Part shown: piece after piece, positions 38,343-46,002 of the stretch
How the letters are laid out: each line of letters starts with the position of its first letter
Numbering within the stretch: position 1 is the first letter of the stretch
NCBI GenBank assembly: GCA_011772865.1
Contig: WVYQ01000017.1
Coordinates: 11,720-75,719 of the forward strand
Direction of reading: 5' to 3'
DNA: 64,000 nt
Source: Woeseiaceae bacterium
GTDB taxonomy: Bacteria; Pseudomonadota; Gammaproteobacteria; Steroidobacterales; Woeseiaceae
Notes under the pieces: generated by a model
What the model saw: only the letters and a program-made list of their open reading frames with translations
What the model was told of the DNA's origin: nothing
Databases searched by the model: none
Translations under genes and position numbers: made by a program

Positions 38343-38933
38343 TCAGGTTTTTGCAAGCCGCTGGCAGGGCTTGTACCGAAAACAAGCCGTGACATGGTCG
38401 TTGACCAGGCCCGTCGCTTGCATGTGCGCATAGACGATAGTGCTCCCAACAAACCGGAAGCCGCGTTTCTTGAGGTCCTTGCTCAGCGCATCCGATTCCG
38501 GAGACGTCGCCGGTATATCCGAATCTTTTCGAAAACGGTTCTGTATCGGCGCACCGTTGACGAAGCCCCAGATGTAGTCACTGAAGCTGCCGAACTCCTC
38601 CTGCACCGCAAGGAACGCCTTTGCGTTGCCGACCGCGGATTGCACCTTGAGGCGATTACGCACGATGCCGGGGTCTTGCAGCAGGCGCTCGATGCGCCTG
38701 TCGGTGAAGCGGGCCACTTTCTCCGGATCGAATTGCGCGAAAGCCTTGCGATAACCGGCGCGCTTGTTGAGGATCGTCGACCAGCTGAGACCGGCCTGCG
38801 CCCCCTCCAGGATCAGGAACTCGAACTGTACGCGGTCATCGTGGACCGGGACGCCCCACTCCTCGTCATGATATCGAATGTAGTCGAGGCTGACCCCTTC
38901 GGCCCACTTGCAGCGTGTGACAGCTTTCGCCAT
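38343..38933 (-). CDS. tag: DNA-3-methyladenine glycosylase I
   Basis: A 196-residue HhH glycosylase that excises 3-methyladenine. It has the zinc-site Cys in RCKW, YHDEEWGVP with the metal-binding His, LILEGAQAGLSWSTIL, and the C-terminal zinc ligands in VNDHVTACFRY. E. coli Tag is 187. The start codon lies about 17 bases after the terminator of the upstream HvfA-like gene, so it must use a promoter inside that hairpin region or rely on read-through. Confidence 0.95.
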   Translation of the reverse strand: MAKAVTRCKWAEGVSLDYIRYHDEEWGVPVHDDRVQFEFLILEGAQAGLSWSTILNKRAGYRKAFAQFDPEKVARFTDRRIERLLQDPGIVRNRLKVQSAVGNAKAFLAVQEEFGSFSDYIWGFVNGAPIQNRFRKDSDIPATSPESDALSKDLKKRGFRFVGSTIVYAHMQATGLVNDHVTACFRYKPCQRLAKT

Positions 38934-38950
38934 CTTGTTAGTTAATCACA

Positions 38951-38979
38951 ACAAAGCCCGCGCCAGGCGCGGGCTTTGT
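38951..38979 (-). terminator. Strong hairpin terminator between the HvfA-like gene and tag
   Basis: A perfect 13-bp inverted repeat (arms ACAAAGCCCGCGC and GCGCGGGCTTTGT) with a 3-base loop lies 25 bases after the HvfA-like stop. Read on the minus strand the stem ends in CTTTGT followed by TGTGATT. The AAAGCCCGC...GCGGGCTTT form is a common proteobacterial terminator and is nearly symmetrical. Confidence 0.75.
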
Positions 38980-39004
38980 GTGCGGATTTTGCAGAAATAC
39001 GAAC

Positions 39005-39373
39005 TTACTCTTGCGCGCCACCGCAGGAGCCCTCACCACAGGCGCCTTCGGCATCTTCTTTGTCGCCGCCACAGGATGCTTCGCCATCCTTGTCGCCGCC
39101 GCAGGACGCTTCGCCGTCCTTGCCTTCGCCTTCGCTTTCCTTGTCGCCGCCGCAGGAACCTTCGCCGCAGCTGCCTTCGGAATCCTTGCCTTCCTTGTCG
39201 CCGCCACACGAGCCTTCGCCCGTGCCGAGCATGTAACCCGCCTGCAGGGTCGACATGGCGAACGGGCTTGCGACCGTATCGGCGTTAGCAATGGTGCCCG
39301 TCAGGGCAAACGAGCCCGCAAGGGCGGCGCCCACAGCCAGGGCGACAGGTTTCGCAACTTTTTTCTCAGACAT
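39005..39373 (-). CDS. HvfA-family Cys-rich RiPP metallophore precursor (orphan)
   Basis: A 122-residue precursor-like protein. Residues 1-52 look like the HvfA leader: MSEKKVAKPVALAVGAALAGSFALTG, then SPFAMSTLQAGYMLG, matching the conserved family F-x-x-x-x-L-x-x-GYM motif. Residues 53-122 are a low-complexity core of Gly, Asp, Glu, Lys and seven Cys (56, 69, 73, 91, 101, 112, 117), each in E-[GA]-[SA]-C-G-[GE]. In HvfA-type peptides, cysteines in EGKCG repeats are converted to oxazolone/thioamide copper ligands by HvfB (DUF692) and HvfC (DUF2063). Neither enzyme is encoded in this window. It lies 60 bases downstream of a DUF3379 anti-sigma gene on the same strand. Confidence 0.82.
   Translation of the reverse strand: MSEKKVAKPVALAVGAALAGSFALTGTIANADTVASPFAMSTLQAGYMLGTGEGSCGGDKEGKDSEGSCGEGSCGGDKESEGEGKDGEASCGGDKDGEASCGGDKEDAEGACGEGSCGGAQE
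39011..39217 (-). repeat. Tandem Cys-Gly coding repeats in the HvfA-like core
   Basis: The DNA for the C-terminal core is a run of imperfect 24-36 base direct repeats coding for [ED]-G-E-[AG]-S-C-G-G-D-K units; two adjacent copies (EASCGGDKDG) are nearly identical. Repeat number could change by slippage or recombination. Confidence 0.75.
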
Positions 39374-39433
39374 CTTCTCTCTCTCCTACTCAGGGTTTCG
39401 CCCGAACCGGGCAACTGCAACGGTCACGGCGGA

Positions 39434-40141
39434 CTAAGTACTCCACGTGACCGAATCCAAAACATTTTTCTCGATGCGCTCGAGATTCTCGTCGCGCTCA
39501 CCGAAAATCGCAATGCTGCCATTGCCGACCGGCAAAATGATGCCGTTTACGCTCTCGCCGGTAACCGACTGCGGGCCCTGCACCTTTTCATCCGGCATCA
39601 GCAACAGCGTAACCGGGCCGCGCTCGCCCTGGATAACCAGGTGCGGCACATCACGACCATTGATCCGGCAGCTTTGTGCATAAGTGATCAGGCCCGCGCT
39701 ATGATCGAGCCGCGCCACTGCTGCCGGCACGACCGATTCGAGGCGCGTATCGCTAACCGGCACATCGGTGACGCGCAGCGCATAAGGCTCGTGATCGATA
39801 TGGGCCAGCAACTGATCTGCCAGGGAGTCGAACTCCCCGCCGCTGCCGATCATCCTGATACCGATGAACGCGGCCAGCACGACGGTCGCCGCCATTGCAA
39901 GCAACGTGGGCGGTGACCAGCGACGGTGCGACAGCGATACGACATTGCCTGTATCGATGTCGGGAAGCTCCGGCACCGTCAGTTCCGGAACGTCGATCGA
40001 GAGCGCTGCGCTGATTGTCCTGTCGAGCTCGAGCATTTCCCTGCGATACGCCTGGCAGGACGCGCACTCACTCAGGTGCCCGGCGCCGCCGTCGAATGAC
40101 GGATCTGCGCCTATTGCTTCTCTGTACTCATTGCAGTTCAT
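39434..40141 (-). CDS. DUF3379-type anti-sigma factor
   Basis: A 235-residue membrane protein starting MNCNEYREAIGADP, with a zinc-finger-like HLSECASCQAYRREM motif (His22, Cys26, Cys29) as in ZAS anti-sigma factors. One membrane helix lies at about 80-98 and a periplasmic C-terminal domain of ~135 residues follows, including one Cys in YAQSCRINGRDVPHLVIQG. This is the DUF3379 layout: a cytoplasmic sigma-binding end and a periplasmic sensor. The ATG overlaps the sigma gene stop by 4 bases. The upstream sigma and downstream HvfA-like gene suggest it senses metal or redox stress (inference). Confidence 0.85.
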   Translation of the reverse strand: MNCNEYREAIGADPSFDGGAGHLSECASCQAYRREMLELDRTISAALSIDVPELTVPELPDIDTGNVVSLSHRRWSPPTLLAMAATVVLAAFIGIRMIGSGGEFDSLADQLLAHIDHEPYALRVTDVPVSDTRLESVVPAAVARLDHSAGLITYAQSCRINGRDVPHLVIQGERGPVTLLLMPDEKVQGPQSVTGESVNGIILPVGNGSIAIFGERDENLERIEKNVLDSVTWST

Positions 40142-40644
40142 CGTTCAGCCATTTTCTCTTTGAGCCTGGCCCGCGCCCGGTGCAGCCTGGTCAGTACCGC
40201 GCCCTGTTTCAGGCCCATTTGCTCTGCGATCTCGTTGGTGCTGAAGCCCATCAGTACCTGCAGCACGAGCGGTTCGCGATATTCGTCGTCGAGCTCATAG
40301 ATTGCCTGGCGCATGTCGTCGAGCTCATCGTTGTCCTCAACCGCCAGCAGCGCGGCCTGTGAGGCAGTCAGGTTGTCGATGTCGATCGTCTCGAGTCGCT
40401 TGCGCTCGAAGTAGCGCGCATTCTCGCGCCGCACGATCGTCAGCAACCACTGCTTTGCCGACCCTTCGTCTCGCAGCTTATCCAGCGACTTCCAGGCCCG
40501 AAGCAATGCCTCCTGCACCACATCCTCGGCTATCGCCTTGTCCCTCGAGAGCCACGCGGCATATCGATACATGTCCTGGTGATATACACCCACGTATTGA
40601 TCAAACCTCTGACGCCGTTTTGCGTTGTCTGTGCTGCTTTGCAT
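40138..40644 (-). CDS. ECF RNA polymerase sigma factor
   Basis: A 168-residue ECF sigma factor with region 2 (YRYAAWLSRDKAIAEDVVQEALLRAWKSL, residues 26-55, with WLLTIVRRENARYFERK following) and region 4 (LDDEYREPLVLQVLMGFSTNEIAEQMGLKQGAVLTRLHRARARL). It is co-transcribed with its DUF3379 partner by an ATGA overlap and probably with the HvfA-like gene. It is divergent from hemB, and the 120-base gap contains a GGAAAC element in the hemB direction. Confidence 0.93.
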   Translation of the reverse strand: MQSSTDNAKRRQRFDQYVGVYHQDMYRYAAWLSRDKAIAEDVVQEALLRAWKSLDKLRDEGSAKQWLLTIVRRENARYFERKRLETIDIDNLTASQAALLAVEDNDELDDMRQAIYELDDEYREPLVLQVLMGFSTNEIAEQMGLKQGAVLTRLHRARARLKEKMAER

Positions 40645-40702
40645 ACGAGATGACCGGGCCCTGATGGGATTTATTACGGATTCCGTCGAAAATTGCGCCT
40701 GA

Positions 40703-41772
<1,070 letters not shown>

Positions 41773-43980: not shown

Positions 43981-46002
43981 ATGCCCAACCCTCTTCTCGA
44001 TACAGCATCGCTTCCGCGATTCGATGAGCTCGCGCCCGAGCAGGTCGTCCCGGCGCTCAGCGAGCTTATCGCAGAGCACCGCCGAAAGCTCGATGCCTTG
44101 CTCGACGAGCACCCGGAACCCGACTTCGATGTGCTGGTGCCCCGCCTCGAGGAAATGGAGCACGAGCTCGCCAGGGTCTGGTCCCCGGTCTCTCACCTGC
44201 AGGGTGTGCTCGAGTCGGCCGAGTGGCGCGAAGCCTACAACGCAGCTCTGCCTTTATTGACCGAGCATGGCACCGAATTATCACAGAACTCGCGCCTGCA
44301 GCAGGCCTATGCGGCCGTGCGCAGAAAATTGCCCGAGGATGCCAGCCCGGCGCAACTCAGCGTCGTCGACCACGCGCTGCGCGATTTCCGGCTGGCCGGG
44401 GTCGACCTGCCCGAAGACGCCAAGGCTCGATTCAAGGACATCATGCAACAGCTCGCCGCCACGCAGGCCGCTTTCGAACACAACGTCCAGGATTCGCAGG
44501 ATGCCTGGAGCCTGTCGGTCGGCGACGAGAGCGAGCTTGCAGGGCTCTCGTCCCATGTCGTTGCGCGGGCAGCCGGTGAGGCGCGTAAGCGCGACCGGCA
44601 AGGATGGCTGCTGACCCTCGATTACCCAACGTACGATGCGGTTATACGGCATGCCGACAATCGAGGCCTCAGAGAGAAGTTTTATCGGGCCTGGGTAACG
44701 CGCGCGTCCGACCAATCTGAGAACAGTGCCTGGGACAATAGCGCCAATATCGAAAAGATTCTCGAGTTACGCCACGAGGCCGCGCAGCTCGTCGGCTTTG
44801 GCAATTACGCCGAGTACTCCCTGGCTACGAAGATGGCAAATTCTACCGATGAGGTGATCGCCTTCTTGCAAAACCTGGCCACGCATTCGCGTGCGGCTGC
44901 CGAAGTAGAGCTGGCCGAGATCTCGGAGTACGCCGGTCTGTCGCTCGCTCCCTGGGACGCCCCCTACTGGCTCGAGAAGCTCAAGCAAAAGAAATACTCG
45001 GTCTCGAACGACGAACTGCGAAAGTACTTCCCGGTGGAAACGGTCATTGCCGGACTGTTCGAGCTCGCCGAGCGGCTCTACGGCATCCGGCTCGCGCAGC
45101 AGGACGATGTCACAACCTGGCAGAAAGACGTTCGCTACTACTCGGTGCAGAACGAAGGCAACGCACTGATTGGCGGCTTCTATGTCGACCTTTTCGCGCG
45201 CAGCGGCAAGCGCAGCGGAGCCTGGGTCGACGAGTGCATCAATCGCAAAAACCTGAATGGCCATGCGACGCTGCCGGTCGGCTATCTCGTCTGCAATTTT
45301 CCGCCGCCCGATAGCGGCCATCCATCGTTGTTGACGCATGAGGACGTCGTGACGTTGTTTCACGAGTTTGGACACATGCTGCACCACCTGCTGACGCGGA
45401 TCGATTACCCGAGCATCGCCGGCATCAACGGTGTGCCCTGGGATGCCGTCGAACTGCCGAGCCAGTTTATGGAGAACTTTGCCTGGAACTTCGATGTGCT
45501 GAGTCGGTGCTCTGCACATACGGAGACAGGCGAACCTCTGCCTCGCGAAATCTTCGATCGCCTCGACGCGAGCCGGCATGCCGGCGCCGCTATGGCCATG
45601 ATGCGGCAACTCGAGTTCGCTCTGTTCGATTTTCGATTACATGCCGAGTACACGTCTGGCTCACCGGGACTGAGTATGAAGCTCCTCGCCGAAGTGCGTG
45701 ACGAGGTTGCCCTGCTGGCGACTCCCGAATACAACCGTTTTGAAAACAGTTTTTCGCACATCTTTGCCGGTGGTTACGCTGCCGGCTACTACAGCTATAA
45801 GTGGGCAGAGGTTCTGGCTGCAGATGCCTTCGACGCTTTTGAAGAGGCCGGCGTATTCGATGCGGACACCGCCAGGCGTTTCCGCCGCGAGATTCTCGAG
45901 GTCGGGGGTAGTCGTGACATCATGCAGGCGTATATTGCATTTCGTGGCCGCCGGCCGGAGATCGACGCCCTGCTCCGGCAAAGCGGAATTCAGACTCGAT
46001 GA
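43981..46002 (+). CDS. prlC: Oligopeptidase A (M3 metallopeptidase)
   Basis: A 673-residue cytoplasmic zinc peptidase that degrades short peptides, including signal-peptide remnants. The zinc motif HEFGHMLHH is at 461-469, with the third ligand Glu about 30 residues downstream (QFMENFAWN). The N-terminus MPNPLLDTASLPRFDEL is typical of the family. E. coli PrlC is 680. It overlaps xthA by 4 bases (ATGA), indicating coupling. Confidence 0.95.
   Translation: MPNPLLDTASLPRFDELAPEQVVPALSELIAEHRRKLDALLDEHPEPDFDVLVPRLEEMEHELARVWSPVSHLQGVLESAEWREAYNAALPLLTEHGTELSQNSRLQQAYAAVRRKLPEDASPAQLSVVDHALRDFRLAGVDLPEDAKARFKDIMQQLAATQAAFEHNVQDSQDAWSLSVGDESELAGLSSHVVARAAGEARKRDRQGWLLTLDYPTYDAVIRHADNRGLREKFYRAWVTRASDQSENSAWDNSANIEKILELRHEAAQLVGFGNYAEYSLATKMANSTDEVIAFLQNLATHSRAAAEVELAEISEYAGLSLAPWDAPYWLEKLKQKKYSVSNDELRKYFPVETVIAGLFELAERLYGIRLAQQDDVTTWQKDVRYYSVQNEGNALIGGFYVDLFARSGKRSGAWVDECINRKNLNGHATLPVGYLVCNFPPPDSGHPSLLTHEDVVTLFHEFGHMLHHLLTRIDYPSIAGINGVPWDAVELPSQFMENFAWNFDVLSRCSAHTETGEPLPREIFDRLDASRHAGAAMAMMRQLEFALFDFRLHAEYTSGSPGLSMKLLAEVRDEVALLATPEYNRFENSFSHIFAGGYAAGYYSYKWAEVLAADAFDAFEEAGVFDADTARRFRREILEVGGSRDIMQAYIAFRGRRPEIDALLRQSGIQTR

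Follow-up and report, generated by a model that had tools for sequence, protein, structure and literature searches.

The window analyzed in this study, a stretch of 64,000 nucleotides from Woeseiaceae bacterium (assembly GCA_011772865.1, contig WVYQ01000017.1), carries on its minus strand three genes in series, which encode an extracytoplasmic function (ECF) sigma factor, a DUF3379 anti-sigma factor, and an HvfA-type precursor peptide. We propose, with a probability of roughly 0.8, that this trio forms one half of a split HvfABCX copper-metallophore pathway, the half with the regulators and the precursor, and that one sigma/anti-sigma switch co-induces the precursor and its enzymes at separate loci. 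In the proposed mechanism, envelope metal or thiol stress would cause the DUF3379 anti-sigma to free the ECF sigma factor, which would then start transcription at the GTAATA-N16-GGTC promoters of at least three loci: the sigma operon (including the anti-sigma and HvfA), the distant genes hvfB-hvfC-hvfX, and a gene for an AhpC/TSA-type redoxin. HvfB and HvfC would turn the cysteines of the EGSCG repeats into thiooxazoles in trans, and the exported peptide would buffer Cu(I).

The Trio and a Distant hvfBCX Set

The sigma gene (168 aa; 40138..40644) and the anti-sigma gene (235 aa; 39434..40141) overlap by ATGA, while a gap of 60 nt (39374..39433) separates the latter from the precursor gene (122 aa; 39005..39373). 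The sigma protein has the sigma-70 regions 2 and 4 (Sigma70_r2 and Sigma70_r4_2) and matches NCBIfam PRK12517 with 204.9 bits (cut-off 197). The anti-sigma matches Pfam DUF3379 (PF11859) over residues 1-229 (108.7 bits, gathering 33.2, E 3.5e-31). The precursor matches NF050137, the HvfA-family repeat domain of the KCGExKCG type, in three stretches (E 4.6e-9, 35.8 bits, cut-off 19.5). It contains seven cysteines in total, every one preceding a glycine, and its N-terminus looks Sec-like by eye. An earlier note on this DNA, made from the window alone, had described the same series of genes with the same overlap and gap, and the coordinates and open reading frames agree with it; the identities it gave to the three proteins are borne out by family models over their cut-offs, with the membrane topology of the anti-sigma being predicted.

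The whole assembly holds a single match to the MNIO (multinuclear non-heme iron-dependent oxidative) enzymes, located on a different contig (C46). The gene order on that contig is nth, DUF1841, HvfB, HvfC, and HvfX. The last three exceed their NCBIfam cut-offs (420 over 360, 308 over 142, and 137 over 80 bits, respectively) and apparently form one operon. This set has no HvfA of its own, as no second HvfA was found in the genome at E ≤ 10 and HvfA repeats occur only in the window gene. The earlier note had observed that neither HvfB nor HvfC lies near the trio, had called the precursor an orphan, and had proposed a genome-wide search for DUF692 and DUF2063. Its observation holds, and the search located the one hvfBCX set described above, so that the word orphan fits the window but not the genome, and a true orphan precursor is rejected. 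Among the options it listed, modification in trans by a distant set gains support from a single hvfBCX without its own HvfA and from the common promoter-like element described below. This is the opposite of hvfBC genes accompanied by their own HvfA and lacking an expression link, which the note had named as the finding that would refute its reading.

Conservation of the Split Layout in Woeseiaceae

Woeseiales, the wider group, are described as globally distributed in marine sediments (PMC7451513). The trio was found again in dozens of related genomes, and the arrangement of the locus is therefore more than chance. Our family set comprised 107 genomes of Woeseiaceae, of which 78 have a match to HvfA, 87 to MNIO, and 87 to DUF3379. 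Among the 77 listed HvfA genomes (G003, with an HvfA match at E 0.009, is not among them), 76 have DUF3379 at most 3 kb from HvfA; the exception is G083, whose contig starts inside the anti-sigma gene. Only two of the 77 (G011 and G105) carry HvfA and MNIO on one contig, where they are more than 2 Mb apart, and none of the 77 has an MNIO closer than 2 Mb on the contig of HvfA. The two genes are on different contigs in the other genomes, which alone gives no distance. Genome G105 consists of a single contig (4,059,891 bp) and has the same layout as the draft genome of the window. The genes nth and DUF1841 stand ahead of hvfB in most of the hvfB loci fetched from the family. The comparison of neighborhoods in related genomes, as suggested in the earlier note, thus reveals that both the sigma-DUF3379-HvfA unit and its split from MNIO are conserved in Woeseiaceae.

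Two genomes carry a second, stand-alone HvfA gene (loci L155 in G006 and L156 in G093); the 5 kb retrieved for them contain neither a match to sigma or anti-sigma nor the promoter element.

A Promoter-Like Element Shared by Both Loci

In alignments of upstream regions, a pair of conserved boxes, GTAATAAA and GGTC, stands out both at the sigma gene (27 loci) and at hvfB (25 loci). In the window, this ECF-type promoter-like element (GTAATAAA-N14-GGTCA, −35/−10) is located at 40651..40677 on the minus strand. In the form GTAATA-N16-GGTC, with a spacing of exactly 16, the element is present in 27/27 sigma loci and in 25/25 hvfB loci with usable upstream sequence. These loci represent the best ~30 of each search rather than all genomes. 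Sigma locus L087 lacks upstream sequence, and two others, L086 and L095, were initially left out, as their alignments start only after residue 10; L095 turned out to be a 28th sigma locus with a fitting element. Five of 30 hvfB upstream regions lack the element, specifically four distant MNIO paralogues (33–41% identity, no adjoining DUF1841 or HvfC match) and one region cut by a contig end. Another distant MNIO paralogue, L057, was left out of this comparison.

In the 28 family sigma loci checked, as in the window, the sigma start codon follows GGTC by 7 nt, a distance so short that a leaderless sigma mRNA is suggested. An element directly before a sigma gene at fixed spacing is the usual signature of ECF autoregulation. 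We infer that GTAATA-N16-GGTC is the promoter recognized by the sigma factor of the trio.

The window contains one exact match, with a mean of 0.10 in shuffled sequences at up to one mismatch. In the own genome (3.26 Mb), GTAATAWW-N14-GGTCW has three sites, compared to none for the backward control and 0.19 expected from base composition. They precede the sigma gene, hvfB, and a gene for an AhpC/TSA-type redoxin whose N-terminus is hydrophobic and which contains a CxxC motif; at hvfB, the TAA in the −35 box doubles as the stop codon of DUF1841. Across the family, 78 of the 107 genomes contain TGTAATAWW-N14-GGTCT, with 97 sites in total versus two backward, and 70 of the 97 are located at most 300 bp upstream of an MNIO gene on the same strand. 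A full-length MNIO is preceded by the element in 82 of 85 family genomes, in its strict form in 69 and as a variant at the same place in 13. The remaining three comprise G031, with a degenerate −10 box, and G073 and G084, which are cut by contig ends.

We inspected 26 of the 27 family sites that are not upstream of MNIO, leaving out the site on contig C74 of G036. A redoxin-type gene follows the site in nine genomes (G000, G023, G026, G040, G041, G053, G076, G084, and G087); these genes were grouped by eye, and those of G000 and G040 were checked against Pfam. In G048, the site precedes a thioredoxin-like gene, and in G011 it precedes a BufA2-type bufferin precursor (128 bits, cut-off 60) that adjoins a second MNIO. 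Apart from the sites before hvfX described below, the remaining ones precede other genes, and some of them may be chance matches.

Genomes G045 (L140) and G094 (L152), both of about 1.5 Mb and without matches to MNIO, DUF3379, or HvfA, have a site preceding hvfX; in G045 the site is behind DUF1841, with no hvfB or hvfC match there, as if hvfBC had been lost in both. In three loci (L136, L142, and L143, from G036, G046, and G047), the element is found 113–371 bp before a conserved gene encoding ~130 aa, which has no Pfam or NCBIfam match in the one case tested (L142). A one-mismatch copy on the minus strand of the window (44258-44284), away from the genes of the system, is probably due to chance.

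DUF3379 Loci Beyond the Family

Among 369 genomes of the class, DUF3379 was found in 57 (50 over cut-off), MNIO in 222, and HvfA in 98. From the 57, we chose 40 DUF3379 loci in 39 genomes by score, leaving out weak or fragmentary matches. A sigma gene precedes DUF3379 in 37 of the 40. We scanned 170 nt around the extrapolated sigma start (−140 to +30 nt) and found the relaxed element G[TCA]AA-N18-GGTC in 31 of these 37 loci (mean 0.3 and maximum 3 in 200 shuffles), with 24 of the 31 within 5 nt of one position; other spacers gave 0–2 matches. An MNIO gene lies inside the fetched stretch in 11 of the 40 loci, and just one (G286) has an EGKCG gene immediately after DUF3379 (same-strand frames only). 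The idea that the sigma-DUF3379-HvfA order is common outside the family is therefore unsupported.

Genome G244 has a complete hvfABCX set divergent from sigma-DUF3379, with relaxed matches on both strands in between. In G150, the relaxed element stands before the sigma gene and before MNIO, and an exact one before a stand-alone hvfA at 2.15 Mb. G290 likewise has an exact element before a stand-alone hvfA.

The DUF3379 Anti-Sigma Factor

In an alignment of 43 DUF3379 proteins, residues C3, H22, C26, C29, H114, E118, C158, and H167 of the anti-sigma are invariant, and H117 is nearly so. The N-terminal residues form a zinc-finger-like motif, C3..H22-x3-C26-x2-C29, and H-x3-C-x2-C is present in 31 of 32 family anti-sigmas. 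The motif of ZAS (zinc-binding anti-sigma) proteins is C/H-x23-26-H-x3-C-x2-C (PMC7907618); its H-x3-C-x2-C part is kept here, but C3 precedes the histidine by only 18 residues. One long helix (residues 79-98) is predicted, which we read as membrane-spanning.

The structure model of the anti-sigma has a mean predicted local distance difference test (pLDDT) score of 77 and a predicted template modeling (pTM) score of 0.52. In a structure comparison of the C-terminal part, the six best rows are RseB/MucB (Z 7.5–7.9, 89–102 aligned residues, root-mean-square deviation 3.0–3.8), the periplasmic regulators of another ECF system, and a seventh row from another family (1vr8) is tied with them (Z 7.4). 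This likeness may amount to a common arrangement of the chain and no more. Foldseek returned no match for the C-terminal part at E ≤ 0.001, and with borderline VIA-align rows and a pTM of 0.52 no known fold is established for it. The structure alignment included 42 of the 71 loci that an alignment search related to the anti-sigma. Many of the 71 are from Woeseiaceae or Woeseia, and the rest from metagenome-assembled genomes (MAGs) of Gammaproteobacteria, Proteobacteria, or Chromatiales and one of Rhodospirillaceae. The relative in the Rhodospirillaceae MAG (L231) has 32% identity and possibly reflects transfer or mis-binning.

Direct metal sensing by the anti-sigma is a hypothesis at this stage. 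It forms part of a more far-reaching reading that we consider possible though on balance doubtful: ECF-DUF3379 would be an unrecognized, widespread gammaproteobacterial switch for MNIO metallophores, with an anti-sigma that directly senses the periplasmic Cu(I) or thiol state via H114, H117, C158, and H167. In Woeseiaceae, the precursor would have been placed under the immediate control of this sensor, and the mature peptide would capture copper close to the sensor's membrane and so feed back on the switch that controls it, with the enzymes remaining in a second operon of the regulon.

Weighing of Alternative Explanations

Several observations weigh against a split pathway under one switch. 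The precursor scores 15.7 bits against the HvfA equivalog model NF050188, below the cut-off of 95 bits, and is therefore termed HvfA-type here and not HvfA proper. In the family alignment its repeats are mostly EGSCG-like rather than EGKCG. Over 52 family precursors, the residue before Cys-Gly is Ser in 351 of 445 units and Lys in 50, while the tested peptides carry Lys at this position. In three family genomes with HvfA, no match to MNIO was found: G035, G087, and G062, the last of which is listed as 100% complete. One family anti-sigma, L081, which is outside the set of 43, has no H-x3-C-x2-C. Class-wide, the strict element occurs 30 times, spread over 26 of 369 genomes, versus 18 backward sites, a count near background, which means that the exact element marks the regulon only in Woeseiaceae, or else in its relaxed form. 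The relaxed form has nine matches in the 10-kb stretch of G244, so that the intergenic ones there could be chance. Finally, the own assembly is a draft of 46 contigs (84.6% complete, 2.1% contamination).

The prevalence of Ser over Lys and the three genomes without an MNIO match would also suit a precursor that works as an unmodified Cys-rich metal buffer, with hvfBCX acting on another substrate. We regard this as quite unlikely, given that the genome has no other HvfA-family match and that HvfA and MNIO, besides sharing a promoter-like element, co-occur among the 107 genomes (both in 75, HvfA only in 3, MNIO only in 12, neither in 17; odds ratio 35, kinship ignored). At least four of the 12 MNIO-only genomes do carry a precursor beside DUF3379; G027, G058, G081, and G088 have no NF050137 match, yet tblastn identifies a precursor adjoining DUF3379 in each, and some of the HvfA absences are thus model misses. 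In G035, the element ends 36 nt before the contig end, and the enzyme gene may merely be unassembled. Genome G001, in turn, keeps sigma-DUF3379 and has neither an HvfA nor an MNIO match.

Another sigma factor might read the shared element, in which case the sigma of the trio would have different targets and the expression link would be indirect. The connection between element and sigma is indeed a correlation drawn from sequence. Nevertheless, we assign this explanation a low probability, because the element stands directly before the sigma gene, at fixed spacing and start distance, in all 27 family loci, because outside the family 31 of 37 sigma genes of this kind have its relaxed form nearby, and because the own genome has just three exact sites. 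That the split is an artifact of assembly or binning, with hvfBCX truly adjoining the trio or stemming from a foreign organism in the bin, as the draft state and contamination might hint, is hardly credible: HvfA and hvfB lie about 50 and 61 kb inside contigs of 353,721 and 292,625 bp, which puts the two loci at least ~110 kb apart, both one-contig cases (G011 and the single-contig genome G105) have the same layout, and hvfB has the same two neighbors, nth and DUF1841, in most family loci fetched.

Precursor mining in the vicinity of MNIO enzymes would call this precursor an orphan and the hvfBCX set substrate-less. The promoter-like element, with its fixed spacing, pairs both halves across the genome and predicts further members, such as the redoxin in nine genomes and the BufA2-type cluster in G011. 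For DUF3379, it suggests a function that can be tested, namely as the anti-sigma in a switch for metallophores.

Other Features of the Locus

Downstream of the precursor gene, a hairpin resembling an intrinsic terminator is located at 38951..38979 on the minus strand, followed by a T-rich tail. The earlier note had correctly placed a terminator here with a 13-bp stem, but the perfect arms (38951-38964 and 38966-38979) are 14 nt long. The downstream neighbor is a methyladenine glycosylase according to a family search, and the divergent open reading frame upstream of the sigma gene is presumably hemB, as read from its sequence; neither was counted as part of the system. In 27 aligned family loci, strong conservation also marks a block with the sequence ATTTTCCCTGTATTTAGGTAGGGTTTCCACG (minus strand, ~40705-40735 in the window), which lies between the ECF promoter element and the divergent hemB-like gene.

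The gap between the anti-sigma and precursor genes contains a short GCCC..GGGC hairpin and an AGGAG ribosome site. The hairpin, ahead of the ribosome site, recurs in most of the 20 family gaps that were aligned, with two consensus pairs but without covariation. An Rfam search of 38500-41200 found no match, and an RNA element in the gap is thus unsupported. The idea that hvfA has its own ECF promoter in this gap was rejected as well, since the element occurs in 0 of the 20 gaps.

Comparison with Known Systems

The closest counterparts are the HvfABCX/oxazolin and the EGKCG thiooxazole metallophores (fontiphorin and gonophorin); an MNIO and its DUF2063 partner install thiooxazole on EGKCG repeats, which yields copper-binding products (PMC12668002). 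The Woeseiaceae system shares with them the Cys-Gly repeat precursor and HvfB, HvfC, and HvfX proteins over their cut-offs. It differs in its separate loci, its mostly EGSCG repeats, its precursor below the equivalog cut-off, and the position of this precursor beside an ECF sigma and DUF3379.

With regard to regulation, Caulobacter sigma-F and its anti-sigma NrsF offer a parallel, with two separate MNIO operons under one promoter motif (PMC3511200). Both systems have an ECF sigma, a membrane anti-sigma (predicted as such here), and MNIO-DUF2063 genes at separate loci which, together with the sigma factor's own gene, have one motif, although regulation in our case is inferred. NrsF is a DUF1109 protein with six membrane segments, in contrast to the one predicted helix and zinc-finger-like N-terminus of the DUF3379 protein, and the Caulobacter DUF2282 precursors stay with their enzymes, whereas the precursor is apart here (PMC3511200). 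In H. influenzae, RpoE2 is likewise an ECF sigma, its anti-sigma HrsE is related to the ZAS type, and the regulon of RpoE2 includes methionine-sulfoxide repair genes and a DoxX-like gene. However, HrsE is a cytoplasmic anti-sigma of 67 aa, rpoE2 barely controls its own promoter, and HvfA is not mentioned by name in the text of that paper (PMC7907618).

Precursor genes apart from MNIO genes are known from the bufferins. Sizeable proportions of Buf1 and Buf2 precursors are found away from MNIO genes, and modification from another locus has been proposed (Antoine et al., 2025; PMC12452194). The statement of the earlier note that HvfA-type precursors normally share an operon with their enzymes therefore describes a tendency and not a rule. 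Genes for a sigma and an NrsF-type anti-sigma are found in Buf1 but not in Buf2 clusters, and DUF3379 is absent from the main text; the parts of the paper examined contain no promoter shared across the split, as opposed to the shared element here (PMC12452194). A full-text literature search gave no paper on DUF3379, and the ECF-DUF3379-HvfA unit is undescribed among the literature matches listed, whose scope excludes most subscription papers, preprints outside PMC, and supplements. Stand-alone precursors and sigma-controlled MNIO operons are thus already known. What appears to be new is the unit of ECF sigma, DUF3379, and HvfA, together with the conservation of its split and the element shared between both loci.

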